Assembly (NCBI GenBank): GCA_017443265.1
Contig: JAFSOU010000095.1
Location: 1-64,000 of the forward strand
Direction: 5' to 3'
DNA: 64,000 bases
Source of the DNA: Bacteroidales bacterium
GTDB taxonomy: Bacteria; Bacteroidota; Bacteroidia; Bacteroidales; P3
Shown here: piece after piece, positions 13,759-49,100 of the stretch
How positions within the stretch are numbered: position 1 is the stretch's first letter
How the letters are laid out: every line of letters begins with the position of its first letter
Notes under the pieces: generated by a model
Told to the model about the DNA's origin: nothing
The model's input: only the letters and a program-made list of their open reading frames with translations
Databases searched by the model: none
Translations under genes and position numbers: made by a program

Positions 13759-13794
13759 CAAAGATACAGCGGCCCTGTGCAAAACCATGGCACA
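13759..13794 (-). promoter_or_regulatory. WYL-type palindromic promoter, site 1
   Basis: Minus strand: 19-bp palindrome TGTGCCATGGTTTTGCACA (13776-13794), 9-bp spacer, then TATCTTTG (13759-13766). Drives microprotein A copy 1. About 90 bp around it are nearly identical to site 2. Confidence 0.85.
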
Positions 13795-13973
13795 AGAGGA
13801 GATTTTTTTCAGTTTGGAGTTTGCAGTTTGCAGTTTGCAGTTAGGAGTTGGGAATGAGGGGGATATAACAATCCGCGGGGACTTCATGAAGAGAAGTGCG
13901 GAGGAATGGATGAATTGGAGTAGTGGGCGTTAGAAATATAGGAAACGAGCACACTATAAATGTTTGTTAGAAA

Positions 13974-16661: not shown

Positions 16662-16697
16662 CAAAGATACAGCGGCCCTGTGCAAAACCATGGCACA
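16662..16697 (-). promoter_or_regulatory. WYL-type palindromic promoter, site 2
   Basis: Palindrome TGTGCCATGGTTTTGCACA (16679-16697, minus strand), 9-bp spacer, TATCTTTG (16662-16669). Drives microprotein B copy 1; the cassette is nearly identical to site 1 although the downstream gene differs. Confidence 0.85.
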
Positions 16698-16824
16698 AGA
16701 GGGAAGTTTTTTTCAGTTGGGAGTTTGGAGTTAGGAGTTTGTAGTTGGGAATGAGGGGGATAGAGACAATGAGCAGCACATTTTTGAAGGGTGGTGCGGA
16801 GGTATATGTGGGTGCAATGGTGGG

Positions 16825-20694: not shown

Positions 20695-20741
20695 CAAATT
20701 TACGTTTTTTTCTCCAAACTTCCAAACCGATGCCCCCCCCC
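20695..20741 (-). promoter_or_regulatory. Promoter of DUF262 pair 1, with C9 tract
   Basis: Minus strand: TTTG (-33-like), 20-bp spacer ending GAGAAAAAAACG, then TAAATTTG (20695-20702). A run of nine C (20733-20741) lies just upstream of the -33 position. The GAGAAAAAAACG segment recurs at the other DUF262-type leaders. Confidence 0.6.
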
Positions 20742-20780
20742 ACTGGGCAAAAAGCATTTCAACTCCCAATTATCAACTTG

Positions 20781-21275: not shown

Positions 21276-21280
21276 GATTT

Positions 21281-21500: not shown

Positions 21501-21509
21501 ACAAACTAA

Positions 21510-22040: not shown

Positions 22041-22260
22041 GGTTTTTGGTGATTGGTGATTCGTGATTCGTGATTCGTGAACAGGTCAATTAATCATTTT
22101 TTTCTTTATGTCTCCTGCTCAGCTTCGCTTCGCGAGATCTTGTAAATCTTGTAAATTTCTTCGCCTTCGGCGAAAGCTTCGCAATAACTATAAATTGTAA
22201 ACTATAAACTATTAACTAATTGTACATTGTTCATTGTTCATTGTAAATTGTTCATTGTTC
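22041..22260. repeat. Dispersed repeats in the leader
   Basis: Contains GTGATTCGTGATTCGTGA, a GAGATCTTGTAAATCTTGTA copy and TTGTTCATTGTACATTG-like motifs. Located between the 176-aa gene and its likely promoter. Confidence 0.6.
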
Positions 22261-22267
22261 TGTATTG

Positions 22268-22303
22268 CAAAGATACGACGTTGGTGTGCCATTTGGTGGC
22301 ATA
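22268..22303 (-). promoter_or_regulatory. WYL-type palindromic promoter, site 3
   Basis: Minus strand TATGCCACCAAATGGCACA (22285-22303), 9-bp spacer, TATCTTTG (22268-22275). Points toward the 176-aa gene. Confidence 0.8.
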
Positions 22304-22390
22304 GTGAGGAGATTTATTTTTGAGATAGTAATTAGTAATGAGTAGTTAGTAATTGGGAATAAGAGGGATAGAGAGAGACTAAAAATAATT

Positions 22391-22531
22391 ATTGGTGTCC
22401 GACAAAAAGTTCGATTACAATATGTAATTACATGATTCTTAGATAATTGAGGCCCAGTTCAAACATAAGGGGCTTGCCACACATGAAAAGTCTCATTATC
22501 AGACATATACGTACTTTTATCGGACACCAAT
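22391..22531. mobile_element. MITE, 141 bp
   Basis: The ends are inverted repeats: ATTGGTGTCCGACAAAAAGT on the left, and on the right the complement of ATTGGTGTCCGATAAAAGT. The element is flanked by direct repeats AAAAATAAT (22381-22389 and 22533-22541), a plausible 9-bp target-site duplication. It is too short for a transposase. The end sequence and target size suggest an IS4-like parent element. Confidence 0.75.
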
Positions 22532-22644
22532 GAAAAATAATCTACAGCGTATTTTGAAGGATTGTGCAGGGAGAGGGGTGTGGAAAGGAGGAAAGTGTTT
22601 CAGCCCGCGAAAAAACGTGCGAGTGAGTCGGTGGGAGGAACGGC

Positions 22645-23589: not shown

Positions 23590-23606
23590 AGTCGTTGTTT
23601 TTGCGG

Positions 23607-23642
23607 CAAAGATAGCGCGTGAGTGTGCCATTTGGTGGCACA
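23607..23642 (-). promoter_or_regulatory. WYL-type palindromic promoter, site 4
   Basis: Perfect 19-bp palindrome arms, TGTGCCACCAAATGGCACA (23624-23642, minus strand), 9-bp spacer, TATCTTTG (23607-23614). Drives the SMC-like ATPase gene. Confidence 0.88.
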
Positions 23643-23704
23643 GTTAAAATATTTTCTAAATCAAGGTAACTTCTTTTACACTATTTTTGATTGTAGAGTC
23701 ATTT

Positions 23705-23768
23705 AATCCGTCTTTATGCCGAATTCCATTAAACAAAAAGCAGACAAAACGACCCTGCTAATTTACGT
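23705..23768 (-). promoter_or_regulatory. Shared restriction-gene leader, orphan copy 2
   Basis: Nearly the same sequence as the leader at 16281-16342 (GTCTGCTTTTTGTTTAATGG, then AATTCGGCATAAAGACGG), but no DUF262 gene follows; the SMC-like ATPase with its own promoter does. The -7 box is degraded (TAAATTAG). Confidence 0.7.
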
Positions 23769-23795
23769 TTTTTTCTCCAAACCGCAAAGACTTTT

Positions 23796-24029
23796 TCACA
23801 CCTCACTCAACCTTGCGTTCTCGTCCTTCTCGATAATACTGATACATTTTTCGATGTCGGCGATAAGATTTTTCATGACCTCTATTTTATCCTGCTTTGT
23901 GTATCTCTGCGTATCCACTGCGAAAATCACTTGGTTGAATTCATGGTCAAGAAGTTCGCGAATGGAAAATTCAATTATTTCCCCATTTGTGTTGATAAAG
24001 GTAAAATAGTCATCGTAAAAATCGTTCAT
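23796..24029 (-). CDS. Microprotein B, copy 2 (77 aa)
   Basis: Paralogue of the 78-aa protein at 16373-16609, differing at about ten positions, mostly around FAVDTQRYTKQ in the middle. The same leader (GTTGCGCCCGGCACG) and AGGGAT ribosome binding site fix the start at 24029. It lies 156 bp after DUF262 pair 2 and has its own palindromic promoter. The block from here to the orphan leader is a duplicate of 16285-16640. Confidence 0.8.
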   Translation of the reverse strand: MNDFYDDYFTFINTNGEIIEFSIRELLDHEFNQVIFAVDTQRYTKQDKIEVMKNLIADIEKCISIIEKDENARLSEV

Positions 24030-24113
24030 AAAACTATCCCTAATTCGTGCCGGGCGCAACTTTTTGGTTTTTAAATAATTACATTGTGAAATACGTGTCT
24101 ATTACGTATGCGG

Positions 24114-24149
24114 CAAAGATACGCCGGCGGTGTGCCAATGGGTGGCACA
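24114..24149 (-). promoter_or_regulatory. WYL-type palindromic promoter, site 5
   Basis: Minus strand TGTGCCACCCATTGGCACA (24131-24149), perfect arms, 9-bp spacer, TATCTTTG (24114-24121). Drives microprotein B copy 2. The leader after the box resembles that of site 6, not that of site 2. Confidence 0.88.
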
Positions 24150-24185
24150 GGTCTGTAGAAAAATGATGGTGAGTAATGCTATTAG

Positions 24186-26486
24186 CTATTTTGAGGATTC
24201 TTTGATAAGACAGTCTAGTGCTTTAGTAAACAAAGAAGTGTCAGTTTCCATTTCTTCCGTTACTCGAAAACAATAATAGTTGTCTTTATCAAGTTTGCCT
24301 TCTTCATAATTTGGACGTTTTTTATAATCTGCCCAATCATTTTCCATAAGGTAAATATCGAGTTCTATATCATTTGAGGATCCATACCATCGGAAATAAT
24401 GGTTGTTGTATTTGAAATCAACATTCTTCTCCACACATTTATAATATCGACAATTCTCTATACAATTTTTTTTACAATAGTTGATAATATTATCGAATTT
24501 TAGTTGCGCTAAAATAGGATTTAGTACAATTTGACAAGATGGATACCCACTTTGCCATATAGCGTGGTAATTGTGATATGTCCTGCGCATCCAAGCACCA
24601 GGCATATTATTGCACACATAATCCATCAATTCGTCATCAACAATGTTCTTTATTAATGGTTCCCTAATTCTTTCTATGCTTTTTTTCGTTGTTTCAATAG
24701 TCACTCCCGTACCCATTATTGCATCAACGGCATTTTTCCAATTATTAGAAACTAAAATGCTTTTCCAATGAACAGCATCATTTGAAAATTCAAAATGCCA
24801 CCATATTTTATCCCAGAAATCATCACAATTTGCCATTAATGATTTCATTAATAAGGCATTGGACATGAATTTTTCTTTTCCGTCTTTTACTCCTTCTTTA
24901 TCAAAATACTTCTTTGCATTTGCCCATTTTGTATCAAAATCACACCAGTATATATTTCCTTCGCCATCCGTAAACAAGAACCTGATTGCACCTTTGAAGA
25001 ATGCGTAACTTTCGGCATCGATAATTATTTCTTTCCAAGTTTGATAATCAGAACCATCTTCCTTTTTGCAAGAACCATTGTATTTGCGAAGATTGCCATC
25101 TTCGTCAAGGATTTGTTTTGCTTTGGCGATTTCTTCTTTCAATTGGTCTGATATATTACCACCAAATTCAATGTCTGAAAGACATTTATATAAAGAAGTG
25201 ACATTGTTATCGTGCATAAACTTATGAATTTCTCCTACACGTTTACAATACGTAACAAAGTTATCATATTCTGAAACATAGTTTTCTGCCATATTCCAAA
25301 CAAATCTCATTGCAGATTCATCACCATCAAACAAGATATATGTAAAAATGACTGACAATAATTTGTATTCAGATTTGTCAGACACTTTAATTGTGTCTTT
25401 ACTCCAATAAGGTTTTATTGTCGGCGCAATTGTCAAGGCATACGCCAAAGCAGGGAAAGCATTAACTAATTTCAATACTTTTTCTATTGGATCAAATTGG
25501 ATATAGTCGGCGTAGTTTTTGTCATTTTCTTCTTTTTTGTTAATTACCTTCAAATTTTCCGCAATTGTTTTTTCCTCTATTTTTTCATCTGATTCTTGTC
25601 CAAAGGCAGCCCAATATCCCGACAAGAAGCGGACTATGAACTTGGCTATATTTACATCATATTTACTTGGGTTATCTTTATCCCAAAACGCATTCGTCCA
25701 ATCTCTGTCCATAAAAAACTTCCACTTTTCTTTGAAACTATCCTTGGGCGCAGCATTGTTTTCAGGGAACCATTTCATTTCTACTTTAATAGTATCAGGT
25801 AACACCTTTTCAATTTTGGCTTTCAAATTTTCAAAAGCAGTCAATGGTTTGCCACGTGAGTTCATTTTCAGATAAAGATTCTCGTTCAAGCCGTTGGATT
25901 CCAAATCAAAGAAGAAGAAAGTAACCTTGTTCAGATTTGGATAGTCAGTTATTTCATTACATTTTTCGTGAATGGCATCTAACATATTCAACATTCCTTC
26001 CACGGTCGGGTCTTTTTCCCAATAATTCATAAACCAGGAAGAATCCTTTATAATATCGGATACTTTTTTGTCTTTTTGGACAGTCCATTCTTCGCTTGTA
26101 ATGCTCTTGCAAAAGTCTGATGCAGCACGCCGCGTGTCGTATGAGAATTTGGACAAATCAAATTCTGTATTTGTTTTTCCTGCTTTTTGCCTATAAAGAT
26201 GCAACAAGAAAAGCGTTGTCAACCGTTGCTGCCCATCAACGGGAATGAAACAGTTCATTTCTTTACCGTCGATAATCCTTTTTTCTTTAGAACCAAACAC
26301 AAGGTCAAAGTGGACATCCTTGCCGCAGAAAATGTCGTTCAGTAAATTATTCCTTACATCAGTTGCTTTTTTGTCAGTACGTCCCTGGGCATAATCACGC
26401 TGAATCATTGGAACCAGTATTTTATCATATTGCTCCAACAATTTTGAAAAGGTATATTCTTGATAATTTGATGTATTATTGCTCAT
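24186..26486 (-). CDS. DUF262 protein, long form, second of pair 2
   Basis: 766 aa. DUF262 motifs VPMIQRDYAQGR (about 26-37) and PVDGQQRLTTLFLL near residue 92; a large C-terminal region of about 500 residues without a recognisable HNH, containing many Trp and Cys (KKNCIENCRYYKCVEK). It starts 11 bp inside the end of the upstream DUF262 gene (ATG at 26486), so the pair is translationally coupled. I prefer this start to one ten codons earlier. AT-rich. Confidence 0.88.
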   Translation of the reverse strand: MSNNTSNYQEYTFSKLLEQYDKILVPMIQRDYAQGRTDKKATDVRNNLLNDIFCGKDVHFDLVFGSKEKRIIDGKEMNCFIPVDGQQRLTTLFLLHLYRQKAGKTNTEFDLSKFSYDTRRAASDFCKSITSEEWTVQKDKKVSDIIKDSSWFMNYWEKDPTVEGMLNMLDAIHEKCNEITDYPNLNKVTFFFFDLESNGLNENLYLKMNSRGKPLTAFENLKAKIEKVLPDTIKVEMKWFPENNAAPKDSFKEKWKFFMDRDWTNAFWDKDNPSKYDVNIAKFIVRFLSGYWAAFGQESDEKIEEKTIAENLKVINKKEENDKNYADYIQFDPIEKVLKLVNAFPALAYALTIAPTIKPYWSKDTIKVSDKSEYKLLSVIFTYILFDGDESAMRFVWNMAENYVSEYDNFVTYCKRVGEIHKFMHDNNVTSLYKCLSDIEFGGNISDQLKEEIAKAKQILDEDGNLRKYNGSCKKEDGSDYQTWKEIIIDAESYAFFKGAIRFLFTDGEGNIYWCDFDTKWANAKKYFDKEGVKDGKEKFMSNALLMKSLMANCDDFWDKIWWHFEFSNDAVHWKSILVSNNWKNAVDAIMGTGVTIETTKKSIERIREPLIKNIVDDELMDYVCNNMPGAWMRRTYHNYHAIWQSGYPSCQIVLNPILAQLKFDNIINYCKKNCIENCRYYKCVEKNVDFKYNNHYFRWYGSSNDIELDIYLMENDWADYKKRPNYEEGKLDKDNYYCFRVTEEMETDTSLFTKALDCLIKESSK

Positions 26487-28227
26487 TGTCAAAGAAGTTT
26501 TTAATAGTTTGTTCAAGTTTGTTTTTGTATGAATCTCGGTCGTCTTTATCCCAAAATGCCATTTGCTCAGGCTTTTCAGAATAGAATTTCATAAACACAT
26601 TCATACTGCAAGCAGGAATGAAACTGCCTTGCTGATAATACTCTTGAAGTTTCTGTCTCTTTTCAAAAAAGAACTTGTTGCCAATACCACGGTTGTCGTG
26701 AGCCGTAAGAAGTGTTAAGTTCTGAATGCCCATTAAGTCATCGCCAGCAGCAAAATACTTTGCTCTTTCTTCTTCAATGATTTTCGTGTCTTTTTCTTCC
26801 TTATTAATGGCATCAATAAGAATTCTGAGATATTCGTTATCTTTGAACTTCTCAACAGCTTTTTTCAAGTCATCATCATTTTTGGGATTTTGTGGTGATA
26901 TATGCTCAACATCCCATTTATACTTATGAAGATTTGCAAAAGAGAACTTGACAGCCTCTTGTGGCCTTTCATTTAGAGTTGCAATATTGAACAACAGCAG
27001 TAAATTGAAAACCTTATCCTTGTTTTCATCATACCTTAATTGCATGAAACCATCAGGATGGTCAATGTGATTCTTACTTTCATCAACAAGCCATTTCTTG
27101 AATGTTTTTTTAGATTTTTCTTCGCAAAACATCTTGTAGATTTCACTTAATTTTTTTCCTCCTTTGGCTGCTCTGTGATAACCGATGAGATTGTACATTA
27201 CAGAATCATTGAACCATCCTTCCATAATATAGAATACTTTCCGAACATTTTCCCATATTATCTTTGATTCCTTGTAAGAATCTTTGCTTTCATTTCCATT
27301 AATCAAATCATTGAAATAGAAGAATGTTCTAAAAGGTTCATCAGTACGGTATTTGTTATTTTGCTCACTCGACTCAAGCATTAAATCAAACAGCAGATTG
27401 ATGCAAGATGAGGGTTTCTCTTTATTACCTGCAAGAAAATACCAGAAATCATCCTGTCGCAACGTACGTTCAATTTGGTCAAATTCATCGGCAAGCAAAC
27501 GTTGCTCTACTTCGCGGTGTACAATATCTTCCTTGCCCACTTTATTCAAAAACAGAGCTTTGATAAGTTCTGCATTTGTAAGAGCAATTTTACCCGAATT
27601 GAGATTGTTGAATATATCGTGTTCTTGTTCCTCTAAAACATCTCCAACATTGTAGAAAATGAATTTGGTTTGTTCCAAAATCTTATTGCGAAACACCTCG
27701 ATGTCTATTTTAACATCCTTTGGATTAATCCATTTCTTTTCTTCATCGGTTCGTTTCTCTAAATGAATCCACCTATCTATGAAGTATTTAGCACTCGTCA
27801 AATGATATATTTCGATATTATTTTTCTTAATCTCAGTGCTCTTGTCGCAATCTTTGATGTATGACTCTCGCTCGTATTCTATAGATGGACACTTTTCATT
27901 CCCCAATGCTTTCAGGATCAAATAAATTGTAGTTAAACGCTGTTGTCCATCAATGACAATCCACTCCCCCTTAAGTAAGGTTTCTACATCTTCGATTGAA
28001 TTAGCCTGCTTTATTTCAGCAAGCAAATCCTTTTTTCGCTTTTTTACGACTAATGGTTGAAGACAATAGAATTCACCGTCAACACCCTTGTTGAACTCAC
28101 AAATATCATTTAGTAAGTTTTCAATTTGCAAGTCCGTCCAGCGATATCCACGCTGGTAGCTTGGTATAAAGAACTTCATTCCAAGAAGTTCACTAACAGA
28201 TTTTAATTCAATATTATTCTCTGCCAT
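26476..28227 (-). CDS. DUF262/DUF1524 protein, first of pair 2
   Basis: 583 aa with both domains: FFIPSYQRGYRWTDLQIENL near residue 19, VIDGQQRLTTIYLIL near residue 94, and the DUF1524 nuclease motif WDVEHISPQNP near residue 430. In this pair the DUF1524-bearing protein comes first, opposite to pair 1. Promoter -7 box TAACTTTG at 28266-28273 (complement). Predicted type IV restriction of modified DNA. Confidence 0.9.
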   Translation of the reverse strand: MAENNIELKSVSELLGMKFFIPSYQRGYRWTDLQIENLLNDICEFNKGVDGEFYCLQPLVVKKRKKDLLAEIKQANSIEDVETLLKGEWIVIDGQQRLTTIYLILKALGNEKCPSIEYERESYIKDCDKSTEIKKNNIEIYHLTSAKYFIDRWIHLEKRTDEEKKWINPKDVKIDIEVFRNKILEQTKFIFYNVGDVLEEQEHDIFNNLNSGKIALTNAELIKALFLNKVGKEDIVHREVEQRLLADEFDQIERTLRQDDFWYFLAGNKEKPSSCINLLFDLMLESSEQNNKYRTDEPFRTFFYFNDLINGNESKDSYKESKIIWENVRKVFYIMEGWFNDSVMYNLIGYHRAAKGGKKLSEIYKMFCEEKSKKTFKKWLVDESKNHIDHPDGFMQLRYDENKDKVFNLLLLFNIATLNERPQEAVKFSFANLHKYKWDVEHISPQNPKNDDDLKKAVEKFKDNEYLRILIDAINKEEKDTKIIEEERAKYFAAGDDLMGIQNLTLLTAHDNRGIGNKFFFEKRQKLQEYYQQGSFIPACSMNVFMKFYSEKPEQMAFWDKDDRDSYKNKLEQTIKNFFDNEQ

Positions 28228-28567: not shown

Positions 28568-28603
28568 CAAAGATACGGTGGCAGTGTGAAAATTGGTGGC
28601 ACA
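28568..28603 (-). promoter_or_regulatory. WYL-type palindromic promoter, site 6
   Basis: Minus strand TGTGCCACCAATTTTCACA (28585-28603), one degenerate arm, 9-bp spacer, TATCTTTG (28568-28575). Drives microprotein A copy 2. Confidence 0.82.
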
Positions 28604-28752
28604 GTGTCAAAAAAAGCCAACATGCAATGTAGAAGTCGATTGTAAATAGCCGAATAAGCGGCGATATTTTGAAGTTCAACAAAAAGGTTGTATTTTTGCA
28701 AAGTGTTTGCAAAAGCCCACAATTCAATTATTTATCTGAAACACACCACACT

Positions 28753-31363: not shown

Positions 31364-32206
31364 TTAAGTATTTGATTTGTTGAACAATTTGTCGAATTCG
31401 TCGGCAAAATAGCGTATCTGCGACGACACGTTGCTTTGCAGCTTGCGCAGTTTCAGGTCGTCGTTGTATTTCTGTTCGTCGAAAAACACGTCGCCGGTGG
31501 CGTTGAGGTTGTAGTAGAGTTTCACGCCCACGTCGCCACGGCGGTGTTTGGAGAAAATCACATAGCGGTCGCTGTAGATGTTTTTGGGGTTGTCCAGCCG
31601 CAGCTCCATCATGGCTGTAATACTGTGTTTCAATCGGTTGGAGCCCACAAATGCGCCGCTTTTGGTTACCTGCTGTATGGTTAGGAAAGTGGTGTTCACG
31701 CCCCTGTCGTTCTGGGCCTTGTTTTGCTGTTTGATAAGGCACAGCAGCATGCTTTCGGCTTTTTTCATGGTTACCTCCTCCTCCTCTTTTACGATGCCCT
31801 GCAGCTCGTAAAACGAGTCGATGGCCACTATGTCCCAGCCACGTTGCATCACTTCGGTAAGGGCGTTCCAATTGTGGGTGTCCTCGTCTATCTGGCTTTC
31901 TACAAAAAGGATGTCGAGGTTGCCGAACTTGGGGAAACGTTGCACGTAGATGGCAAGGTCGATCTCGTTCATCTCGGCACTGACAAAAAGGATGCGCGCC
32001 TGCGGCTGCTCTTTCTGTATATTGGCAAGCATATCGAGTATAATGGTGGTTTTGCCCACGCCGGGGTCGCCTATAATCATATAGTTAACCCCTTTGGGCA
32101 GACCGCTGTAGGAACAGAGCAGCCTGTCGAGGACAGTGCCGGTGCGGTAGTTCTCGAACAGACTGCTGCTGAAATGCAGGTCGCTCATCCTTACAATGTC
32201 TTTCAT
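31364..32206 (-). CDS. RecA/RadA/DnaB-like P-loop ATPase
   Basis: 280 aa. Walker A GDPGVGKTT (46-54), followed by LFVSAEMNEIDLAIY, a RadA/DnaB-like segment, and Walker B WDIVAIDSFYEL. It lacks the zinc finger and Lon-like part of RadA, so it is a minimal RecA-fold ATPase. The start at 32206 is supported by the -7 box (32227-32234), which overlaps longer frames. First gene of the ATPase/DUF932-like/PLD operon under palindrome site 7. Confidence 0.88.
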   Translation of the reverse strand: MKDIVRMSDLHFSSSLFENYRTGTVLDRLLCSYSGLPKGVNYMIIGDPGVGKTTIILDMLANIQKEQPQARILFVSAEMNEIDLAIYVQRFPKFGNLDILFVESQIDEDTHNWNALTEVMQRGWDIVAIDSFYELQGIVKEEEEVTMKKAESMLLCLIKQQNKAQNDRGVNTTFLTIQQVTKSGAFVGSNRLKHSITAMMELRLDNPKNIYSDRYVIFSKHRRGDVGVKLYYNLNATGDVFFDEQKYNDDLKLRKLQSNVSSQIRYFADEFDKLFNKSNT

Positions 32207-32226
32207 ATTATCTGTGTTATGTTTTG

Positions 32227-32262
32227 CAAAAATAGTGTCAAACTGTGCCAATGCGTGGCACT
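32227..32262 (-). promoter_or_regulatory. WYL-type palindromic promoter, site 7
   Basis: Minus strand AGTGCCACGCATTGGCACA (32244-32262), 9-bp spacer, TATTTTTG (32227-32234). Drives the RecA-like ATPase operon. Confidence 0.85.
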
Positions 32263-32382
32263 CGGAGGGTGTTTTTTTTCATCACCTCAGAACAAGCCAA
32301 GTATAACACAATTTTTCCGAATAGCAATGGCTAAGTGCCGATTTTAAAAAAACAACCCGTTTCACAACCACCTCCAAATCAA

Positions 32383-34164
32383 TCAGTTCTGGCAGTTGAA
32401 ACCGATTTTCTTGCGTTTGGAACCTCCGAGTTTTTCGTGGCGGCACATATCCTCAATGGCGTCGATGTCGGGGCGTTTGCCGTGCAGCACCTCTTCCATC
32501 ACCACCTTACGCACGATGTTGTCTATCTCGCCGCCGGAGAAGTCGTGTTTTTGCGCCAGCTGATGGCACTCGTCGTCGGAGAGCCACTCCAGCTTGCTTT
32601 TCCAGATGCTCTGCTTGGCCTCGACTGTGGGCTGGTTGAACTGCACCTTGAAAAGGAAACGACGTGCAAAAGCGCTGTCGAGGTTGTCGGTGAGGTTGGT
32701 GGTAGCTATCAGTATGCCGTCGAGGTTCTCCATCTCCTCGAGGATGATGTTCTGTATGGCGTTTTCGGTCTGCGCCACGCTGCTGTTGGTGTTGTTCACG
32801 TTCTGGCGACTGCCGAAAAGTGCGTCGGCCTCGTTGAAAAGGAGTATGGGCTTACGTTCCTCTCTCTCGCACATGCTGCGGTAGTTGGTGAAGATGCGTT
32901 TCACTAATTTCTGGCTCTCGCCGTACCAGCAGGTCTTGGCGGCGCTGATGTCCACATGGCACACGGCGCGGCCGGTGGCGCGGGCTATCTGCATGGCCGT
33001 CTCGGTCTTTCCCGTGCCGGGCAAGCCATGGAAAAGGGCGGTGATGCCTTTGGGCAACGACATCTTGTCGAGACGCTGCTGCAGCTCGGAGAACTTGTCG
33101 TCGTCGAGGTTTTGGGTGAAAAGCTCCAGCTGCTTGGTAAGGTCGGCATCGTAAAACATCTGTTTTTCAGGTATTTTGTCAGGATAAATAAGGTTTTTGT
33201 TACGTGCTTCGGCCTCGTCGGTGAAAAGGTCGTAGTCCTCCTCCAGAAACAGCCGTTTACCCTTGTCGGTGAGCGAGAGGCTGGCTTCGGAGAACATATT
33301 GCCGGAGCTTATCTCCACCAGTCCTGCCTTTTGCAGAAGATGCTGCTGGTCTTTCAGCATCTTGCCTATGGCAAAACGCATGCGATAGTTGTCGTAGATG
33401 TCGTTCAACGTGCATTCCAAACCGCTCTCGCGGCGATGGCTTGTGAGAAAATCGTCGCAGATTTCGTAGAACAGCGTGCGGTCCTCGGATTCGGAGAACA
33501 TCTTACAAACGTTTTTCACGAAAGTGAGCTCGGGGTATTCAAACTCCACCTCCGCCACTTTCTCAAAAAGAAGATGCGTGGGGGCATCCTCGGAACTGCG
33601 GCCTTCGATAAGGTCCGACACCATTTTCACGAACTTGTAACGATGGATTTCCTCGCCGCCGAGTTTGCTTTTGTCGAAAGCCTTGCCGCTCATGATAGTC
33701 TCTTTCACAATGGGATTGATGACATAATCGGGATTGTTGGAAAAATGGCGGTGATTAGTGACTTGCACAAGGTACTTGTTCTTGACAAGGTAGTCGAAAT
33801 TTTCAGCCAGAACCATAAACTGCATGTTGTTAAGTTCGAAAAAACTGCACACGTCGTCGGCATCGAAATTATCCCTGTTGAAATTTTTGCTGAAAGCCGC
33901 CACAAACAAAGCCGACTGCAATGGGGTAACACCCAGATACTTCGACAGATACACGTTTTGATTAACAACCTCCATCATGGTTTTTGCGGTGAAGGGATTT
34001 TTTTTGTCATCTTCGTTGTCGACAAAACGACCATGGCGACACGCCCTTTTCTCCTGCTCCGACAGGGTGTCGGGAGCTATAGTGTTGAGTAGATAGGTTT
34101 TGGAGTCCTCCAGCTGCATGGCGAGGTAACTCACTGTCTTCAGAATGTTTTTTGTTTTTTTCAT
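32383..34164 (-). CDS. AAA+ ATPase, 593 aa, with N-terminal winged-helix-like region
   Basis: The C-terminal AAA+ module has Walker A LPGTGKTE (about 379-386), a Walker B written LLFNEAD (Asn in place of the first Asp), sensor ATTNLTDNLD and the arginine-finger-like FARRF. This NEAD variant is seen in ARC/CDC48-like bacterial ATPases. The N-terminal 350 residues are helical with winged-helix-like repeats (LVEISSGNMFSEASLSLTDKG) and may bind DNA or substrates. The gene is divergent from the WYL regulator gene and has its own palindromic promoter (34193-34228). Confidence 0.88.
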   Translation of the reverse strand: MKKTKNILKTVSYLAMQLEDSKTYLLNTIAPDTLSEQEKRACRHGRFVDNEDDKKNPFTAKTMMEVVNQNVYLSKYLGVTPLQSALFVAAFSKNFNRDNFDADDVCSFFELNNMQFMVLAENFDYLVKNKYLVQVTNHRHFSNNPDYVINPIVKETIMSGKAFDKSKLGGEEIHRYKFVKMVSDLIEGRSSEDAPTHLLFEKVAEVEFEYPELTFVKNVCKMFSESEDRTLFYEICDDFLTSHRRESGLECTLNDIYDNYRMRFAIGKMLKDQQHLLQKAGLVEISSGNMFSEASLSLTDKGKRLFLEEDYDLFTDEAEARNKNLIYPDKIPEKQMFYDADLTKQLELFTQNLDDDKFSELQQRLDKMSLPKGITALFHGLPGTGKTETAMQIARATGRAVCHVDISAAKTCWYGESQKLVKRIFTNYRSMCEREERKPILLFNEADALFGSRQNVNNTNSSVAQTENAIQNIILEEMENLDGILIATTNLTDNLDSAFARRFLFKVQFNQPTVEAKQSIWKSKLEWLSDDECHQLAQKHDFSGGEIDNIVRKVVMEEVLHGKRPDIDAIEDMCRHEKLGGSKRKKIGFNCQN

Positions 34165-34192: not shown

Positions 34193-34228
34193 CAAAAATA
34201 TAAACTCGGTGTGCAGAAATATTGCACA
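34193..34228 (-). promoter_or_regulatory. WYL-type palindromic promoter, site 8
   Basis: Minus strand TGTGCAATATTTCTGCACA (34210-34228), 9-bp spacer, TATTTTTG (34193-34200). Drives the AAA+ ATPase gene. The centre differs from the other sites but the TGTGC/GCACA arms and spacing are kept. Confidence 0.82.
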
Positions 34229-34329
34229 GTTTTACAAAATATTGTTCTACAATTTATTACAAATAGCTATTAGTATCATTTTCGTTTTTTGATTGTCGAA
34301 ATCCGACGTTTTTTCACTCCATTTTTCGG

Positions 34330-34675: not shown

Positions 34676-34681
34676 TTTAGG

Positions 34682-34717
34682 TGTGCCACAAAATTTCACA
34701 CTAAATTTGTATATTTG
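34682..34717 (+). promoter_or_regulatory. WYL-type palindromic promoter, site 9 (of the WYL gene)
   Basis: Plus strand TGTGCCACAAAATTTCACA (34682-34700), 9-bp spacer, TATATTTG (34710-34717). It is the only plus-strand copy and stands directly before the WYL regulator gene, as expected for autoregulation. Confidence 0.85.
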
Positions 34718-34744: not shown

Positions 34745-35656
34745 ATGACCAAAGACCTGATACGCAAATATATATGGCTTATCGACCATATCCAAAAAGA
34801 AGGCGTGGAGGGCGTTACCTACGCCGACATCGCGCAGAGATGGAAAGAATACACCGGAACGCCGTACGCCAAACGCACGTTCCACAACCATATCAACGCT
34901 GTTTACGAACTTTTCGGCATCGAAATAAAATGCCTCAAAGGCAAAAACCTGAACAGGTACTACATAAGCGACAACAGCGACTTTAAAGACATTTCGGGTT
35001 TTAAAAACTGGCTGCTCGACGCCATGTCGCTGAGCTGCGCGCTGGAGGTGAAAGAGCCGCTGAAAAAACGCATTCTGCTGGAGGAAGTGCCATCGGGACG
35101 CGAAAACCTTACGGACATACTGGAGGCCATGGGCAACGGCAAAACATTGACATTCACCTACAAAGCCTTTTGGATGGACGGCGACAAGGAATCGACGTTC
35201 TACAACGTGGAGCCATACGCGCTAAAGATGTTCAAACGGCGCTGGTATCTGCTGGCCAAATACGGCGACGGCCCGCTCAAGACCTACGCCCTCGACCGCA
35301 TGAGCAATATCGACGAGGAGTTCAACAATTTCACCCCTCCCGAAGATTTCGACGCCGAGGAGTTTTTCAGCACCTGTTTCGGCATTATCAGCGACCAAAA
35401 AGTGGAACCGGAAATAATATACCTGAAGGTGGACGACTTTCAGGCCAAATACCTGCGGTCGCTGCCCCTGCACCACTCGCAGAAAGAGGTGGAACAAACC
35501 AATGATTACACGGTGTTCAGCTATTACCTGCGCCCGTCGTTCGATTTTGTGCAGGAGATATTGCACCACGGCGATACTATGGAAGTGCTCAAGCCCGAGA
35601 GCCTGCGCGCAGAGGTAGCACGCATCGCCAGAGTGATGGCGGAGAGAAACTCTTGA
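34745..35656 (+). CDS. WYL-domain transcriptional regulator
   Basis: 303 aa. N-terminal winged helix (YADIAQRWKEYTGTPYAKRTFHNHINAV, about 24-53), then a WYL domain (LTFTYKAFW, VEPYALKMFKRRWYLLAKY near residues 158-172) and a C-terminal WCX-like extension (HHSQKEVEQTNDYTVF). WYL regulators such as BrxR and CapW sense a ligand and bind inverted repeats in front of phage-defence operons. This gene carries the same palindrome in its own promoter as nine other transcription units nearby, so it is the likely regulator of that regulon. Whether it activates or represses is not decided by sequence. Confidence 0.9.
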   Translation: MTKDLIRKYIWLIDHIQKEGVEGVTYADIAQRWKEYTGTPYAKRTFHNHINAVYELFGIEIKCLKGKNLNRYYISDNSDFKDISGFKNWLLDAMSLSCALEVKEPLKKRILLEEVPSGRENLTDILEAMGNGKTLTFTYKAFWMDGDKESTFYNVEPYALKMFKRRWYLLAKYGDGPLKTYALDRMSNIDEEFNNFTPPEDFDAEEFFSTCFGIISDQKVEPEIIYLKVDDFQAKYLRSLPLHHSQKEVEQTNDYTVFSYYLRPSFDFVQEILHHGDTMEVLKPESLRAEVARIARVMAERNS

Positions 35657-42397: not shown

Positions 42398-43528
42398 CTA
42401 TTTTTCTTTAAAAAAATCGTGTATTATCTTGAAATCATCAAGAATCGCATTCAAATTATCGTTAGTCAAACCAAGTTCTCGGGTGTAATACTTTCTGGCA
42501 TGTTCTTTCTGCAACTCGATTTTTCTACTTAACTCTTTCAGCAATTTCGAATTAGTAATATCCCCGTTTTTCTGTTCCAAACAACAACTAACAGTGTCAA
42601 ACTCATCACTCAGTTCTAAATAAAGAAAATAATTTGACCCGTTTTTACTTAACTCCGTTACCAACGGATACTTTTGGGGATTTTTGTCTTTGAAGGGTTT
42701 TACACCTTTATCACGGTTCCACTCATCAATTTTTGATTTAATCAAATCATAGATATAATTCGGGAAATCATCTAAAAGTTTCTTCGTTTTGTTGTATCCA
42801 TCAGAAACTTTTCCTAGGTCTTTCTCGAATTCTTCATCGAAATAATTTTTCAATTCTTTTTCCATTTTGTCTCCTTTTTTTAATATTTGTAAATAATTGA
42901 TATATTGTTTTAAAGCACTTTCCAAAATAGTTTCGTTCCGGGCAATGCTGATGTTTTTTTCCAACCACGGCAATATGTCGTATAAATATGAAAGATTGCA
43001 AAAACGGGTGGAAAATTCGGTTTTTTGACGTGGGCCGCTCCAAGTGTCAGCACTTGGTTTTTGGTAATATTTTGTCAGATAAACGATATATAGATTGTCC
43101 TTTTTAATACCTTTTTCCTCAACTTTTTCGATGTACCTGTCCAGCTGCCTATCCTGATCAACTGCCCCGCATACCTTATTCTCAACTATTATTGCGTTCT
43201 CTCCGGTTAAAATCAGCACATCTATCCTGTCCTTCTCCTGAGTTATTTCGGGAGATGCAACCATAATTTTCGAAAAATCGCACTCTAACACTTTCTGTTT
43301 ATCTTTTATATACTCCAACAATGAGTCCAGAAAAACATATTTACCTTCTTCTTTATATTGCAGGAGTTTAGCCAATATACGGCTGTGTGCGTTCTCGTTT
43401 ATATGCAACTCCTCAATAATATTGAGATGATAGGGTTGTTTCTTTTTTACTTCCTCTAATTTTTCTGAGTATTCTTTCGCCAACGCTATAATATCAGCAT
43501 ACTTTACATTTTTTTTAATTTTACTCAT
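42398..43528 (-). CDS. PD-(D/E)XK nuclease family protein, tandem copy 2
   Basis: 376 aa. The first 60 residues are almost identical to the neighbour at 43750-44928. The nuclease core reads RIDVLILTGENAIIVENKVCGA (Asp, then ExK), followed by DQDRQLDRYIEKV. This PDDEXK_4-like family is common in defence islands. After the first third the two paralogues diverge strongly (C-terminal parts share little), which suggests selection for different targets or partners. The promoter region, including a -7-like TAACTTTA, was copied with the gene. Confidence 0.88.
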   Translation of the reverse strand: MSKIKKNVKYADIIALAKEYSEKLEEVKKKQPYHLNIIEELHINENAHSRILAKLLQYKEEGKYVFLDSLLEYIKDKQKVLECDFSKIMVASPEITQEKDRIDVLILTGENAIIVENKVCGAVDQDRQLDRYIEKVEEKGIKKDNLYIVYLTKYYQKPSADTWSGPRQKTEFSTRFCNLSYLYDILPWLEKNISIARNETILESALKQYINYLQILKKGDKMEKELKNYFDEEFEKDLGKVSDGYNKTKKLLDDFPNYIYDLIKSKIDEWNRDKGVKPFKDKNPQKYPLVTELSKNGSNYFLYLELSDEFDTVSCCLEQKNGDITNSKLLKELSRKIELQKEHARKYYTRELGLTNDNLNAILDDFKIIHDFFKEK

Positions 43529-43749: not shown

Positions 43750-44928
43750 CTATTTAATTGTATTCAACACTTCAAAAAAGGTCTCTTTTAGCTGTTTCAA
43801 ATTCGCATTACTAAGCAGCCACGTGCATTCATAAGTATGTTTATCCTCATTAAAACCTTCTTTACATTTATCTTGCAGTACTTTTTTGATTTTCTTGACA
43901 GTATCGTTTGTTTCACTTATATTATTTTTAGTATCTTCTACCTGAAACACACAATAAATGTTTTCAAGATTTTGGTATGGTTTCGCAAATTTAATATACA
44001 AAAAATAGTCTTGAGAGCCCACCCCTTTGCATTTGACTACCAGAGGATTATACTCCGGCTCAGCTTCTTCTTTGTATAATTCGATTTTATCTGTTTCCTT
44101 TATTTCTTCTTTCCATTTGCATATTTCTTCTACAATAAGATTTCTTTTATATTCAACTATTCCGTCATTGAACTCCGTCAAGCTATTGTGTGTTTCAACA
44201 ACTTTATCAACGTCTTTAGAAAATCCATTGTTTTCAAAGAATTGTTTCATTTTTGCTTCCATTTTGTCCTCGTTTTTAAGAATTTGTAAATAATTTGCAT
44301 ATTGTTCTAATGCACTTTTTAATTCGGTTTCTTTTTCGTCAAGTTTGTCCTTGACATCATTTAGCCATTGCAAAATGTCAATCATATAAGAAAGATTACA
44401 AAAGCGGGCCTTGAATTTCCCTTCTTCGACCTTGGAGCTCCAAGTATTTTTTGTGGGACTTTGATAATATTTTGTCAAATAAACGATATAAATATCACTT
44501 TTACCATAGCCTTTACCCTTTACCTTTTCTACATATCTGTGCAACTGTTTTTCCTGATCGTTGGCGCCACATATTTTATTTTCGATTATTACTGCCTGTT
44601 TTTCACCTAAAACGAGCACGTCAATCCTGTCTTTTTCCTGAGTGATTTCTGGAGAAACAACATTTATTTTCGAAAAATCACAACTAGAGCCATTCTTATC
44701 ATTGATATACTCCAACAATGACTGCAGAAAAACATATTTTCCTTCATTGTCTTTATATTGAAGAAGTTTAGCCAATATACGGCTGTGTGCGTTCTCGTTT
44801 ATATGCAACTCCTCAATAATATTGAGATGATAGGGTTGTTTCTTTTTTACTTCCTCTAATTTTTCTGAGTATTCTTTCGCCAACGCTAGAATATCAGCAT
44901 ACTTTACATTTTTTTTAATTTTACTCAT
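43750..44928 (-). CDS. PD-(D/E)XK nuclease family protein, tandem copy 1
   Basis: 392 aa paralogue of the previous gene. The core is RIDVLVLGEKQAVIIENKICGAN with DQEKQLHRYVEKV. N-terminal MSKIKKNVKYADILALAKEY is shared with copy 2. AT-rich. It follows the MreB-like operon on the same strand, 95 bp after the 167-aa gene, and may have inserted behind it. Confidence 0.88.
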   Translation of the reverse strand: MSKIKKNVKYADILALAKEYSEKLEEVKKKQPYHLNIIEELHINENAHSRILAKLLQYKDNEGKYVFLQSLLEYINDKNGSSCDFSKINVVSPEITQEKDRIDVLVLGEKQAVIIENKICGANDQEKQLHRYVEKVKGKGYGKSDIYIVYLTKYYQSPTKNTWSSKVEEGKFKARFCNLSYMIDILQWLNDVKDKLDEKETELKSALEQYANYLQILKNEDKMEAKMKQFFENNGFSKDVDKVVETHNSLTEFNDGIVEYKRNLIVEEICKWKEEIKETDKIELYKEEAEPEYNPLVVKCKGVGSQDYFLYIKFAKPYQNLENIYCVFQVEDTKNNISETNDTVKKIKKVLQDKCKEGFNEDKHTYECTWLLSNANLKQLKETFFEVLNTIK

Positions 44929-45023: not shown

Positions 45024-45527
45024 TTACAGTGCCACACCCCAGTTGTCGGCCACGTTTTTTTCGGTGATGGCGGCTATGTCGGTGTAAACAGCGTCGAAAA
45101 ACTCGCTAAAGGCTTTGGGCTGACCGCCGGCTTTGGCGTAGTCGTCCATGCTGCGGGTCTCCACAAAGTCGAGCGCGCTGCCCTCGAGCTGCTCCAACAG
45201 ACGGGTTTCCAGCTCCTTGCCGGCTTCCTCGAACCCGAAAGGCTCCACCAGCACCATGCCCGCCTTGCAGCCTTTGGCAAGCAGTGCCTTAAGGCCTTTC
45301 ACGGCACTGTCCATAGTCGTAGCACGCAGGGCCGACATCACCACCACCGCAACACAGTGGGTAACAGCGGATTGTGCGTTATCGGCAGGCAGCACGGCGT
45401 TCCATTCTGTGTGCACGGCCACGTTTTGGGCGGCGCATTTCTCTTTCAGTATTTTCTCCAACTGTCCGTGGCTGTGGTCATCGCACAGCACCACGGCAAA
45501 CGATTGTTTTTGTTGTGTTTGGTTCAT
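45024..45527 (-). CDS. Hypothetical protein, 167 aa, in MreB-like operon
   Basis: Alternating strand-helix pattern (FAVVLCDDHSHGQLEKIL, CVAVVVMSAL, AGMVLVEPFGFEEA) suggests a Rossmann-like alpha/beta fold. No family recognised. It starts 22 bp after the MreB-like gene and is the third gene of the operon under palindrome site 10. GC-rich, in contrast to the nuclease genes downstream. Its last 13 codons are duplicated at 43623-43670. Confidence 0.75.
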   Translation of the reverse strand: MNQTQQKQSFAVVLCDDHSHGQLEKILKEKCAAQNVAVHTEWNAVLPADNAQSAVTHCVAVVVMSALRATTMDSAVKGLKALLAKGCKAGMVLVEPFGFEEAGKELETRLLEQLEGSALDFVETRSMDDYAKAGGQPKAFSEFFDAVYTDIAAITEKNVADNWGVAL

Positions 45528-45549
45528 TTTTTGTTTTTTTATGTTACTT

Positions 45550-46803
45550 TCATTTTATCAATATATCATCGAAACGGTCGAAATGCATTAGTTCCAAGAA
45601 TGGATTAGGGTTGATTGGAACGCGCTTGACAAGCACGTCAAATTCCGACAAGCTTTCTTGCTCCGAAACGCGATTGCCTTCGGCATCGGTTACACCATGT
45701 TTTGAACAATAGTCGCCCACGACATCTTTAAGGCGAATGTCCAACTCCGGAAATCTAGCACTACCTCCGGTCAATGCTATGCGTTTTGTCTTGAATAATA
45801 TATCGTATGCCATCTCGGGAGGGATGCTTTCAAGAACTTCCATCACCGCCATGTCAATTTTTCTCAGCAGCTCTTCATTAGGCAGTTCAATGTCCATGCA
45901 AAATATCACAATGTTCTCAAGCTTATTAGTGTCGGGGTTCATACCAACAATTTCCTTAGCACCTGTAACGTTTTCTTCCATTAGTCTGAAACCGATATCC
46001 AACATGGCTTGTTCGGCATGTTCTTCGTCAACAAGTAGGTTGTGCCTTTTCAGCAAATACTCGCAAGTATTTTTTGTAAACAATTTTCCGGCGAAGGGTA
46101 GCGTTTTGCTAGTAACGATGCCGCCGAGGGCTATCACCGAAATTTCGGTAACTCCACCGCCACAACGGACTATCATTTTTGCCTCGGGTTCGTAAATGTC
46201 GTAACCCAAGCAAATGGCTTCGGCCAATGGTCGGTAGATAAAACGTACATCCTTGGCACCCGTTTCCTGCAACGCCTCACGCAACAGGTCGATCTCTTGT
46301 GTGGAGAAAGTGGCAGGTACAATCATCAGCATTTTGGAAATTTCACTGCCTTGAAAAAGTAGTTTCTTACGTTCCACAACCATCTCTCTTACAAGATATT
46401 GGGCGGCTTCTTTGTCCGCTATTTCCCCCGCCACCAACGGACGCACAACGGCATCGCCATCCTGCAAATCAAAATTGTTACGTTCATCGCCAATTTCGAC
46501 AAATTTGCCATCACGTTTGACAACGGCAGTCGAAGATCCATAACGTTCCCAAGTTGGGAAACCTTGTCTGAAAAAGAGCGAACAATATGTGTTTCCCAAT
46601 TCAAATATCGCATTAAGTTTTTTGTCGTTACGATAATCTCTATACATCTCCAACAGCTCAATCAGTCTGTCAAGTTTGTCATTGTCTAAACGATGATCGA
46701 ATCTCAACGAAGAAAAAAGGCGCAAACACTCTTTGTCTCCAACCGTTTCCACATAATAATTGTCTATAGGAATCCAAAAGTCTCCTGTTACTTGTTTTTT
46801 CAT
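45550..46803 (-). CDS. MreB-like bacterial actin, divergent
   Basis: 417 aa, about 70 residues longer than MreB. The actin-fold landmarks are visible: RPLAEAICLGYDI, the phosphate-2 type loop MIVRCGGGVTEISVIALGGI (about 197-216), and ALTGGSARFPELD (adenosine motif). The N-terminal 120 residues are unlike MreB. No mreC/mreD/rodA genes are near; the neighbours are two unknown genes, so it is not the cell-shape MreB. Actin-like proteins also serve in plasmid partition and as filament-forming ATPases. Under palindrome site 10. Confidence 0.85.
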   Translation of the reverse strand: MKKQVTGDFWIPIDNYYVETVGDKECLRLFSSLRFDHRLDNDKLDRLIELLEMYRDYRNDKKLNAIFELGNTYCSLFFRQGFPTWERYGSSTAVVKRDGKFVEIGDERNNFDLQDGDAVVRPLVAGEIADKEAAQYLVREMVVERKKLLFQGSEISKMLMIVPATFSTQEIDLLREALQETGAKDVRFIYRPLAEAICLGYDIYEPEAKMIVRCGGGVTEISVIALGGIVTSKTLPFAGKLFTKNTCEYLLKRHNLLVDEEHAEQAMLDIGFRLMEENVTGAKEIVGMNPDTNKLENIVIFCMDIELPNEELLRKIDMAVMEVLESIPPEMAYDILFKTKRIALTGGSARFPELDIRLKDVVGDYCSKHGVTDAEGNRVSEQESLSEFDVLVKRVPINPNPFLELMHFDRFDDILIK

Positions 46804-46923
46804 TGTTTTTTAATGTTTTGGTTAATAATATGATTTTTATAAATGAGCCTGTCGTTCGGTCATTGCATTAAAACATTCTGGCATAGGCGTGAGGCTGCAA
46901 CTGCGTTTCAACTTATTTAATTA

Positions 46924-47229
46924 TTATTCGAAGCACCAATTTTCCTCCAGCAAGTTTTTATAAACCACACTACGTTCCATAAAGGAGTTGGCAATGGCGT
47001 TGCTGATTACGGGTTTCTGGTTGCTGACACGTTCTTTCTCCGACCACCACAGGTATGCCGCCATCACGCACTGCTCCATAGGGATGCCGTAAGGTGCAAG
47101 AAACACGCCCCGTTCGTTCAAAATGCCTTCCAAAGCCGCGTTGCCCATGGTGATGTTCTGGCCGAAAAGGCCTAAAGCCAGTCTGCCGATAAAATCATAA
47201 ACTTTGTCGTCAAAAGATTCTTTTTTCAT
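46924..47229 (-). CDS. Hypothetical protein, 101 aa, first gene of MreB-like operon
   Basis: Small helical protein (MKKESFDDKVYDFIGRLALGL; PMEQCVMAAYLWWSEKERVS). No known family. It lies 120 bp before the MreB-like gene and about 105 bp after the palindromic promoter. Confidence 0.75.
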   Translation of the reverse strand: MKKESFDDKVYDFIGRLALGLFGQNITMGNAALEGILNERGVFLAPYGIPMEQCVMAAYLWWSEKERVSNQKPVISNAIANSFMERSVVYKNLLEENWCFE

Positions 47230-47333
47230 TGTTTTTTTACTTTTTTAATTGGTGGTTCCTTTTTCGCCTAACTTCCTGACGCAGAGCGAACCACAACATC
47301 TCCGCGCGTCGGTTTTCTCGTCTTTCGACACTG

Positions 47334-47369
47334 CAAAGATACCATCGCGCTGTGCAAATCCGTGGCACA
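47334..47369 (-). promoter_or_regulatory. WYL-type palindromic promoter, site 10
   Basis: Minus strand TGTGCCACGGATTTGCACA (47351-47369), 9-bp spacer, TATCTTTG (47334-47341). Drives the 101-aa / MreB-like / 167-aa operon. Confidence 0.87.
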
Positions 47370-47480
47370 GCATAGCCAGGGCCTTTCTACCAAAGGAAAT
47401 GCAGAACTGATTTTTTTTTTACAAAAACGACACAAAAACGAGCTTTTTTGATGTAATTTGGCCATGCGAGTGTGCATAAC

Positions 47481-47518: not shown

Positions 47519-47656
47519 TTACTTTTTTGGCACAAAAACGTAGGTTTTGCCATTAACAATCTTTGCCATGCCTCCCATATCACGTGCGGCTTTTGTCAGG
47601 TCGCTGACGGAGGCGTAGGTCTGGCTCATTCCGTTCGGAAAATTTAAAGTGTACAT
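47519..47656 (-). CDS. Microprotein A, copy 3 (45 aa, diverged)
   Basis: MYTLNFPNGMSQTYAS... ending KTYVFVPKK; about two thirds identical to copies 1 and 2, with the helix changed to VSDLTKAARDMGG. The start at 47656 matches the other copies. Its promoter is different: TATTTTTG (47694-47701) with 11-bp direct repeats upstream instead of the palindrome. It has its own terminator. Function unknown. Confidence 0.82.
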   Translation of the reverse strand: MYTLNFPNGMSQTYASVSDLTKAARDMGGMAKIVNGKTYVFVPKK

Positions 47657-47827: not shown

Positions 47828-49057
47828 TCACCGCCCCATCAGTACTTTGCAACGTTCCACCACTCGCAGAAAGAGGCTGTAAACCTCGTCCTTGTCGTTG
47901 CAGTATTTCCACACGCAGCTTATGTCGTACTCTGGCAGAAGGTTCTGTTTCAGGTCGTTGAGAACGAGGTTTTGGCCGTATCTTATTCGTTTGCCGCTCT
48001 TGGTATCCATAATCAGAGCCTGGCAATACATGCCTTTGCCGTCGGTATCATCGAAAATATATACGCACAGCGCTGTTTTGTCGGTAAGCGGAAACGACAC
48101 ATCGGTAAAGGTGGACACACCTACATATTGGTTGGGCTTAAGGTCGGGGAAACGCTTGGCGGTATTTTCCACCCAGTCGGGAAAAGGCGCGTCGAAAAGG
48201 GCATCGTATGCGAACAACTCTGTATCGGTTGCGTAGTAAGGCTTTGAATTGGCAAAAAACCAAACTCCTGCCACCAAAACAGCGGCCAGCAATGCAGCCA
48301 CCAACGAAACTCCCGCAATGTCGGCTCTGCGCAAGGCCTTTTCCACAGCCTTTGCGGAGGGGTAACGCTTTTGCGGATCGCTTTTGGTGCAACGCCGTGC
48401 CACGTGGCAATAGCGGTGCGGGAAAAGTTCTTTCAGCAAAACTCCGAAAGCATAGATGTCGGCACGGGAGTCCACAGCCACGCCGGGCCGCATCTGCTCG
48501 GGGGCGGCATAGGCTTTGGTATATGCAGGGCCCTTAAGAACGGCATAGTCGTCGCTGTCGGCCAAACCGAAGTCTATCAGCTTCACATTGTCGCCGTTGC
48601 GGGTAACAAGTATGTTGGAGGGCTTGAGGTCGCGGTGAACTATCTGCTTGGCGTGACAGTAGTCCAAGGCCTCCAGCAGCTGCAACGCCACTTTCTTACG
48701 CAGTTCGCGCGAGGGACGCTCGGCAAGGAAATCGGACAACGGACGGCCGTTAACATAGTCCATTGCAAAGCAGATGCCCAGCTCGGGATGCTCCTCCATG
48801 CGGTAGGCGCGCACTATGTTGTCGTGGTCGAGGCGCGAGGCGATGTCGAACTCCTTTTGCAGCAGGGTTCGGAAAACGGGGTCGGACTGCCGGTCGGGTT
48901 TTATGCCCTTCAGCACCTCCCAACGGCCGTTGCGACGCACTTTCACCACACGGCTGTATCCCCGCGACTGGATTTCCTCGAAATCGCCGCCACCGTCCGA
49001 AGCACTGAAAGACACCACGTTAACGTAGTCGGATATGCTGTTTTCATTGTTTTCCAT
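47828..49057 (-). CDS. Eukaryotic-type Ser/Thr protein kinase, membrane-anchored
   Basis: 409 aa. Kinase domain with a Lys of the VAIK type in WEVLKGIK, HRDLKPSNILV near residue 140, DFGLAD near 160, and the APEQ segment; the Gly-rich loop is weak. The C-terminal lobe is short and runs into a single membrane helix (about residues 250-275), followed by an extracytoplasmic domain of about 135 residues of unknown type. It would phosphorylate cytosolic proteins in response to an envelope cue. The start at 49057 is fixed by the -7 box at 49063-49070. Divergent from the 206-aa gene. Confidence 0.9.
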   Translation of the reverse strand: MENNENSISDYVNVVSFSASDGGGDFEEIQSRGYSRVVKVRRNGRWEVLKGIKPDRQSDPVFRTLLQKEFDIASRLDHDNIVRAYRMEEHPELGICFAMDYVNGRPLSDFLAERPSRELRKKVALQLLEALDYCHAKQIVHRDLKPSNILVTRNGDNVKLIDFGLADSDDYAVLKGPAYTKAYAAPEQMRPGVAVDSRADIYAFGVLLKELFPHRYCHVARRCTKSDPQKRYPSAKAVEKALRRADIAGVSLVAALLAAVLVAGVWFFANSKPYYATDTELFAYDALFDAPFPDWVENTAKRFPDLKPNQYVGVSTFTDVSFPLTDKTALCVYIFDDTDGKGMYCQALIMDTKSGKRIRYGQNLVLNDLKQNLLPEYDISCVWKYCNDKDEVYSLFLRVVERCKVLMGR

Positions 49058-49100
49058 CGCTGCAAAAATACGAAAAATTTCCAACCAAACACAAATAAAT

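Follow-up and report, generated by a model that had tools for sequence, protein, structure and literature searches.

Why should the gene of a bacterial actin stand behind an operator of the kind found at defence-type genes, and what could its product do there? The question is raised by a three-gene operon of a Bacteroidales bacterium (GTDB lineage P3; GenBank assembly GCA_017443265.1), in which genes for a 101-aa protein, a 417-aa MreB-like protein and a 167-aa protein follow a palindrome. We have analysed this operon within positions 1 to 64,000 of contig JAFSOU010000095.1 (the window, belonging to the genome designated G000) and in its relatives, orthologues of the operon being present in one contig (L005) and in the genomes of three further species of the genus (G182, G183 and G184). 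A sequence-only reading of the window had described the three genes behind the palindromic site, both of which are confirmed here, and had suggested that they provide a filament-forming sensor or effector. The features considered are collected in Table 1.

Table 1. Coordinates of the actin operon, its neighbours and the ten operators, in positions of the window
Feature	Position	Strand	Remarks
101-aa protein, no assigned family	46924..47229	-	operon gene 1; relatives compared, dN/dS
417-aa MreB paralogue, catalytic triad replaced, new N-terminal stretch of ~65 aa	45550..46803	-	profile, fold, tree, alignment
167-aa alpha/beta protein, predicted fold like FtsZ N-terminal (GTPase) domain	45024..45527	-	AlphaFold model; no support from sequence profiles
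Ser/Thr protein kinase (PknB-like)	47828..49084	-	neighbour in 3/4 species; possible, uncertain member of actin unit
45-aa ORF (MYTLNFPNGMSQTY...) directly upstream of actin operon	47519..47656	-	paralogues, G184 orthologue
Actin-operon operator, perfect inverted repeat CTGTGC-N9-GCACAG	47350..47370	-	palindrome scan, conservation
-7 box TATCTTTG of actin-operon promoter	47334..47341	-	exactly 8 nt past operator
WYL-WCX transcriptional regulator, candidate regulon repressor	34745..35656	+	own promoter bears operator
Operator of WYL gene	34681..34701	+	WYL regulator's own promoter, same 8-nt spacing
Operator of AAA ATPase gene 32383-34164	34209..34229	-	operator scan
Operator of 280-aa ORF (ATG 57 nt downstream; frame of ORF 31364-32251)	32243..32263	-	
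Operator of 44-aa ORF + GmrSD-type genes 26476-28227, 24186-26516	28584..28604	-	
Operator upstream of 77-aa ORF + AAA_21 gene	24130..24150	-	
Operator of AAA_21 ATPase gene (ORF 22645-23631, later start likely)	23623..23643	-	
Operator upstream of 176-aa ORF 21510-22040	22284..22304	-	
Operator of 78-aa ORF + GmrSD gene 14476-16227	16678..16698	-	
Operator of 44-aa ORF + 154-aa ORF 13025-13489	13775..13795	-	

Upstream of the operon the palindrome GCTGTGC-N9-GCACAGC extends without mismatch over positions 47349-47371. The window contains 12 near-matches to it against 1.7 expected, a number reached by none of 100 shuffles. In a scan for the palindrome with up to three mismatches allowed, the sequence downstream of the matches was inspected: at 10 sites of the window the motif TAnnTTTG follows in the same orientation after exactly 8 nt, this motif being the -7 consensus of sigma-ABfr, the primary sigma factor of Bacteroides (PMC7366714). 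With C allowed for the last T it has a frequency of about 0.0007 of the strand positions here. The exact composite of operator and -7 box occurs 7 times in the 2.77-Mb genome, 6 of them in the window, and with up to two mismatches it gives 20 genome matches against 0 for the reversed control. An open reading frame starts with ATG 54 to 264 nt after each of the 10 operators. The claim that the actin operon lies under a defence-type palindrome holds in that its operator-promoter is common to neighbouring defence-type genes, and this sharing is well supported.

Small open reading frames are also found here. One family of 44-45 aa (MYTLNFPNG-SQTY...GKTYVFV), located on the minus strand at 13706, 28483 and 47656, stands behind two operators and before the actin operon: the 45-aa frame next to the operon has paralogues after operators 28584 and 13775, and its orthologue precedes the actin gene of G184. 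Operators 16678 and 24130 are followed by members of a second family (77-78 aa, MNDFYDDYFTFINTNG...). These frames might serve the defence units as leaders, antitoxins or small regulators.

One of the operators is the promoter of the WYL gene itself; the WYL-WCX protein, in which both domains score over the cut-off, is the obvious candidate binder of all ten and their likely repressor. Related sites occur outside this island. TGTACC-type palindromes with the same spacing to TAnnTTTG are found at WYL paralogues and other loci (G000:C100:9086, C124:14305; G182:C65; G183:C99; G184:C4:37804), and the paralogues in G182, G183 and G184 bear their own related palindromes with the spacing unchanged; apparently these WYL regulators form a family whose operator specificity drifts. 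A WYL-controlled defence island is a regulatory frame of known kind, and the clear operators outline a ten-promoter regulon that is open to direct testing.

The surroundings of the operon comprise two PDDEXK_4 nucleases, McrBC-like genes (a label that comes from reading the open reading frames and not from a family search) and one Ser/Thr kinase, and suf-like genes adjoin it at the edge of the island. The earlier statement that it has no mreC, mreD or rod genes beside it is borne out by the open reading frames and Pfam matches of the neighbourhood in the window. The nuclease genes (42398-43528 and 43750-44928) are adjacent, highly similar and next to the McrBC-like genes, and are likely a tandem duplication. 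Five GmrSD-type genes are gathered in a single island at positions 14476-28227, some of its units sitting behind near-identical operators (13775, 16678) as though copied along with their promoters. None of the three operon proteins matches any defence model of PADLOC.

The 417-aa protein scores 150 bits against the Pfam family MreB_Mbl (PF06723), whose curated cut-off is 27, and MreB came first in a PDB fold search with its AlphaFold model, which is poor (pLDDT 58) and good only for the fold class. Other actin-like families were rejected: HSP70 reached 21.6 bits and FtsA 16.7, ParM gave no match, and MamK appeared behind MreB at rank 39 of the fold search. Sequence and fold comparisons place the protein with MreB, the best match in both, rather than with ParM, Alp or Hsp70-like proteins. 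A housekeeping role as the cell's MreB is ruled out by a separate mreB elsewhere in the genome (G000:C80), which scores 404 bits against 150 for the operon protein; mreC is found on another contig, C63. The concern that the protein might be orthologous to the housekeeping MreB of a genome with no other mreB is thereby removed. In the tree the five members of the 417-aa family form one clade apart from the MreBs, with a support of 100/100 and a stem of 3.5 changes per column, and the protein can be regarded as the divergent MreB paralogue that had been suspected; the branch is too long for placing its source among the MreBs of Bacteroidota. A phylum-wide profile search returned only ordinary MreBs among the matches listed outside the genus. 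The genome also encodes another MreB-like protein (335 aa, 78 bits; G000:C96:88-1017, L003, L046), which has diverged strongly and branches at a large distance from the operon actin.

The catalytic glutamate of Caulobacter MreB is E140 (PMC4051119). In our alignment the P1 aspartate, the catalytic glutamate and the P2 aspartate are invariant in 55 of 55 MreBs of Bacteroidota and replaced in all five members of the 417-aa family, the P1 Asp by E, Q or W, the catalytic Glu by R and the P2 Asp by R or H. The aligned glutamate column is matched to the Caulobacter residue through the EPMAAAIG motif of MreB. The glycines of the P2 and adenosine motifs are mostly retained and the C-terminal tail FDRF-DFLIK resembles that of the genome's own MreB, to which the protein is about 30-35% identical; the N-terminal segment and helix of MreB are replaced by about 65 residues beginning MKK-VTGD, and the protein departs from MreB at many otherwise invariant columns. 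Identity to MreB taken by subdomain gave no clear pointer to either filament end. The loss of the ATPase site is well supported, and the protein is probably an ATPase-dead MreB, for which hydrolysis of ATP is very unlikely and binding of metal-nucleotide doubtful. Since the three acids are lost in all members, ordinary ATP-driven filament dynamics are unlikely, and the description of the protein as filament-forming finds no support.

The 167-aa partner was matched to no family in searches including Pfam and PADLOC; it was not found in a sample of 392 other Bacteroidales genomes from outside the genus, nor did viral, plasmid and wider Bacteroidales searches give any relative beyond the genus. 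Its AlphaFold model, which rests on 5 sequences, has a pLDDT of 79 and a pTM of 0.79. When this model was used for a fold search, the top 50 PDB matches were all FtsZ, 13 of them at E <0.001 (best 1e-4), and a viral structure library gave nothing at E <0.001. As we read the model, its strands and helices are arranged in the order of the N-terminal domain of FtsZ up to helix H7, and the motif AGMVLVEPFGFE is reminiscent of how strand 5 of FtsZ ends (VVAIVTMPFRFEG in the cell's own FtsZ). The GGGTGTG loop for GTP and the T7 loop are absent from all five family sequences. Comparison with FtsZ by hhalign found only the PF-x-FE motif, HMM and pairwise scores were not consistently above those of shuffled sequences, and the Pfam profile PF00091 gave no match; sequence homology to FtsZ is accordingly unsupported. 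Because these sequence tests came out negative, we hold the claim to a predicted FtsZ-like fold and do not claim descent from FtsZ. The protein had been described as an alpha/beta protein, which stands, although a merely generic one is not what the PDB matches predict. The genome carries a tandem pair of ftsZ genes in the vicinity of an FtsA-like gene (G000:C76:90183-91844, L094, L074); two copies are also present in G182 and G183 and one in G184. Of the pair, the first gene is divergent, scoring 100 bits in G000 and 127 in G182.

All three genes occur in the same order in G182, G183 and contig L005, with an operator that is identical in G183 and has one arm mismatch in G182. In G184 the actin is 39% and the 161-aa partner 56% identical, the 101-aa gene is absent, and the corresponding position carries a symmetric variant, CTCTGC-TTCGGTTTG-GCAGAG, 8 nt before a TATTTTCG box. 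Both arms have changed alike and the inverted repeat is still perfect, which fits an operator bound by a dimer. Comparison of the neighbourhoods demonstrates that the pairing of actin and 167-aa protein is constant in the four species examined and that the 101-aa gene and the kinase are variable; the kinase, found in G000, G182 (96% identity) and G184 (64%), is missing in G183. The 101-aa protein shares 93-95% identity with its three relatives, and viral, plasmid and wider Bacteroidales searches outside the genus gave one weak relative (G309) and otherwise nothing. A 233-240-aa protein without Pfam family is encoded near the actin operon in G182 and G184 (L037:8134-8856, L039:9650-10351).

Across the three operon genes dN/dS ranges from 0.14 to 0.64, below 1 in every comparison. 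For the 101-aa gene it is 0.14-0.21, and for the actin and 167-aa genes it is mostly 0.3-0.6 among near relatives, indicating moderate constraint; by this measure the latter two evolve faster than the 101-aa and kinase genes. With orthologues in relatives and dN/dS within this range, these are real genes under purifying selection.

We propose that the operon is derepressible, and that its MreB paralogue and FtsZ-like domain act on, or stand in for, the host MreB and FtsZ during infection, a reading to which we assign a probability of roughly 0.37. The WYL repressor would bind CTGTGC-N9-GCACAG directly upstream of the -7 box and keep the operon off until infection or DNA damage signals its release. 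The MreB paralogue, which retains the fold of actin, the glycine loops and the tail at the C-terminus and is devoid of the metal-ATP residues, would then be made in a burst together with the small FtsZ-like domain. By docking on the MreB and FtsZ filaments of the cell, or by capping them, both mimics may stall elongation and division, and the infected cell would stop growing; the 101-aa protein may assist or target the two mimics. Joint blocking is a known route to cell arrest, since CbtA, a single toxin of E. coli, is reported to inhibit the polymerisation of both MreB and FtsZ, although the two-hybrid analysis in the same paper saw binding to FtsZ and not to MreB (PMC5371832). We infer the defence role, the target and the growth arrest; as it is limited to one genus, the operon is tied to defence only by its shared operators and its location. 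We also put forward, as a tentative and rather doubtful formulation, a pair of co-expressed, catalytically dead mimics of actin and tubulin, silenced by WYL and released by infection to freeze MreB and FtsZ or to bait attacks on them.

Non-catalytic mimics would also suit decoys, and the dead MreB-like and FtsZ-like proteins might bait the inhibitors that phages direct at MreB and FtsZ, either by titrating these or by signalling that they are present, perhaps via the kinase that is adjacent in three of the four species. T7 and similar phages encode one inhibitor for FtsZ and another for MreB, and the higher evolutionary rate of the actin and 167-aa genes would fit an arms race. However, neither mimic is fused to a signalling domain, the kinase is missing in one species and does not stand under the same operator, and the identity to host MreB represents a large divergence for a bait, so that we consider a decoy or guard unlikely. 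The filament-forming sensor or effector of the sequence-only reading would demand that the actin polymerises without hydrolysis into a scaffold triggering defence. Nucleotide-independent filaments are conceivable, and the protein retains both the fold of actin and its glycine loops; nevertheless, all three catalytic or metal-binding acids are lost, the N-terminal helix is replaced along with many invariant columns, and family searches of the operon proteins found no recognition or killing domain. Such a scaffold seems to us distinctly unlikely, and we prefer the poisoning of filaments over bait or scaffold.

The operon might also lie outside immunity, as a lineage-specific cytoskeletal accessory that modulates, for instance, shape or division in times of stress, the WYL regulon being a general regulon of DNA damage or stress. 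Some WYL regulators are reported to respond to DNA damage (PMC10693628, PMC12340889), and the position of the operon at the island edge beside suf-like genes, together with its restriction to one genus, agrees with such a role. The remaining genes of the regulon are, however, of the restriction and ATPase types that defence islands typically contain, and we regard a non-defence function as improbable. That the actin is a degenerate, functionless remnant of an mreB duplication might be suggested by its lost catalytic residues and its long branch, but all five members are intact and full length, dN/dS stays below 1 throughout, and promoter and operator are kept; this explanation is very improbable.

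To our knowledge, ATPase-dead pseudo-actins have hardly been described in bacteria. Our literature searches turned up no report that connects a protein like MreB with a defence island, which is weak evidence because the library searched was open-access only, and the cargo of the operon is without counterpart in PADLOC or in the open-access papers searched. If MreB and FtsZ are truly targeted or imitated by the pair, the host cytoskeleton itself would have supplied the parts of an immune strategy, and co-expressed dead mimics of both cytoskeletons would be a new kind of immune effector.

With respect to known systems, the regulatory frame resembles that of BrxR, a WYL repressor binding inverted repeats in an island that also holds a GmrSD enzyme (PMC9122601), and of CapW, which is reported to control a CBASS system (PMC9122588): these likewise combine a WYL protein, a defence-rich island and inverted-repeat operators at promoters including its own. 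Unlike BrxR, ten promoters of one island are involved here, with a strict 8-nt spacing to the -7 box, and the boxes described for BrxR are 11-bp repeats with 5-bp spacers (PMC9122601), unlike CTGTGC-N9-GCACAG.

The 417-aa protein shares with MreB (PF06723) the fold, the domain order, the glycines of the P2 and adenosine motifs and the FDRF-DFLIK tail, and departs from it in the three replaced acids, the new N-terminus of about 65 aa, the lack of mreC and mreD neighbours and its own clade. Its actin core is also matched by phrog_22570, a phage MreB-like family (E 2e-21), although this family has 682 positions and is matched over the MreB core only. MreB-like stretches are present in 22 phage records (INPHARED MT835502.1 and others), 15 of them named Bacteriophage sp.; among the matches listed they show 29-36% identity, and the records listed are from human faecal samples. 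The 167-aa protein is like FtsZ (PF00091) in its predicted fold and in the PF-x-FE motif at the matching strand end, and differs in having neither the GGGTGTG loop, the T7 loop and the C-terminal domain nor support at the sequence level. Finally, the joint effect on MreB and FtsZ proposed here is that of the CbtA/CbeA (YeeV/YeeU) type IV toxin-antitoxin system (PMC5371832); no antitoxin was identified here, and in contrast to CbtA, an inhibitor that binds MreB and FtsZ, the operon proteins are themselves MreB-like and FtsZ-like.
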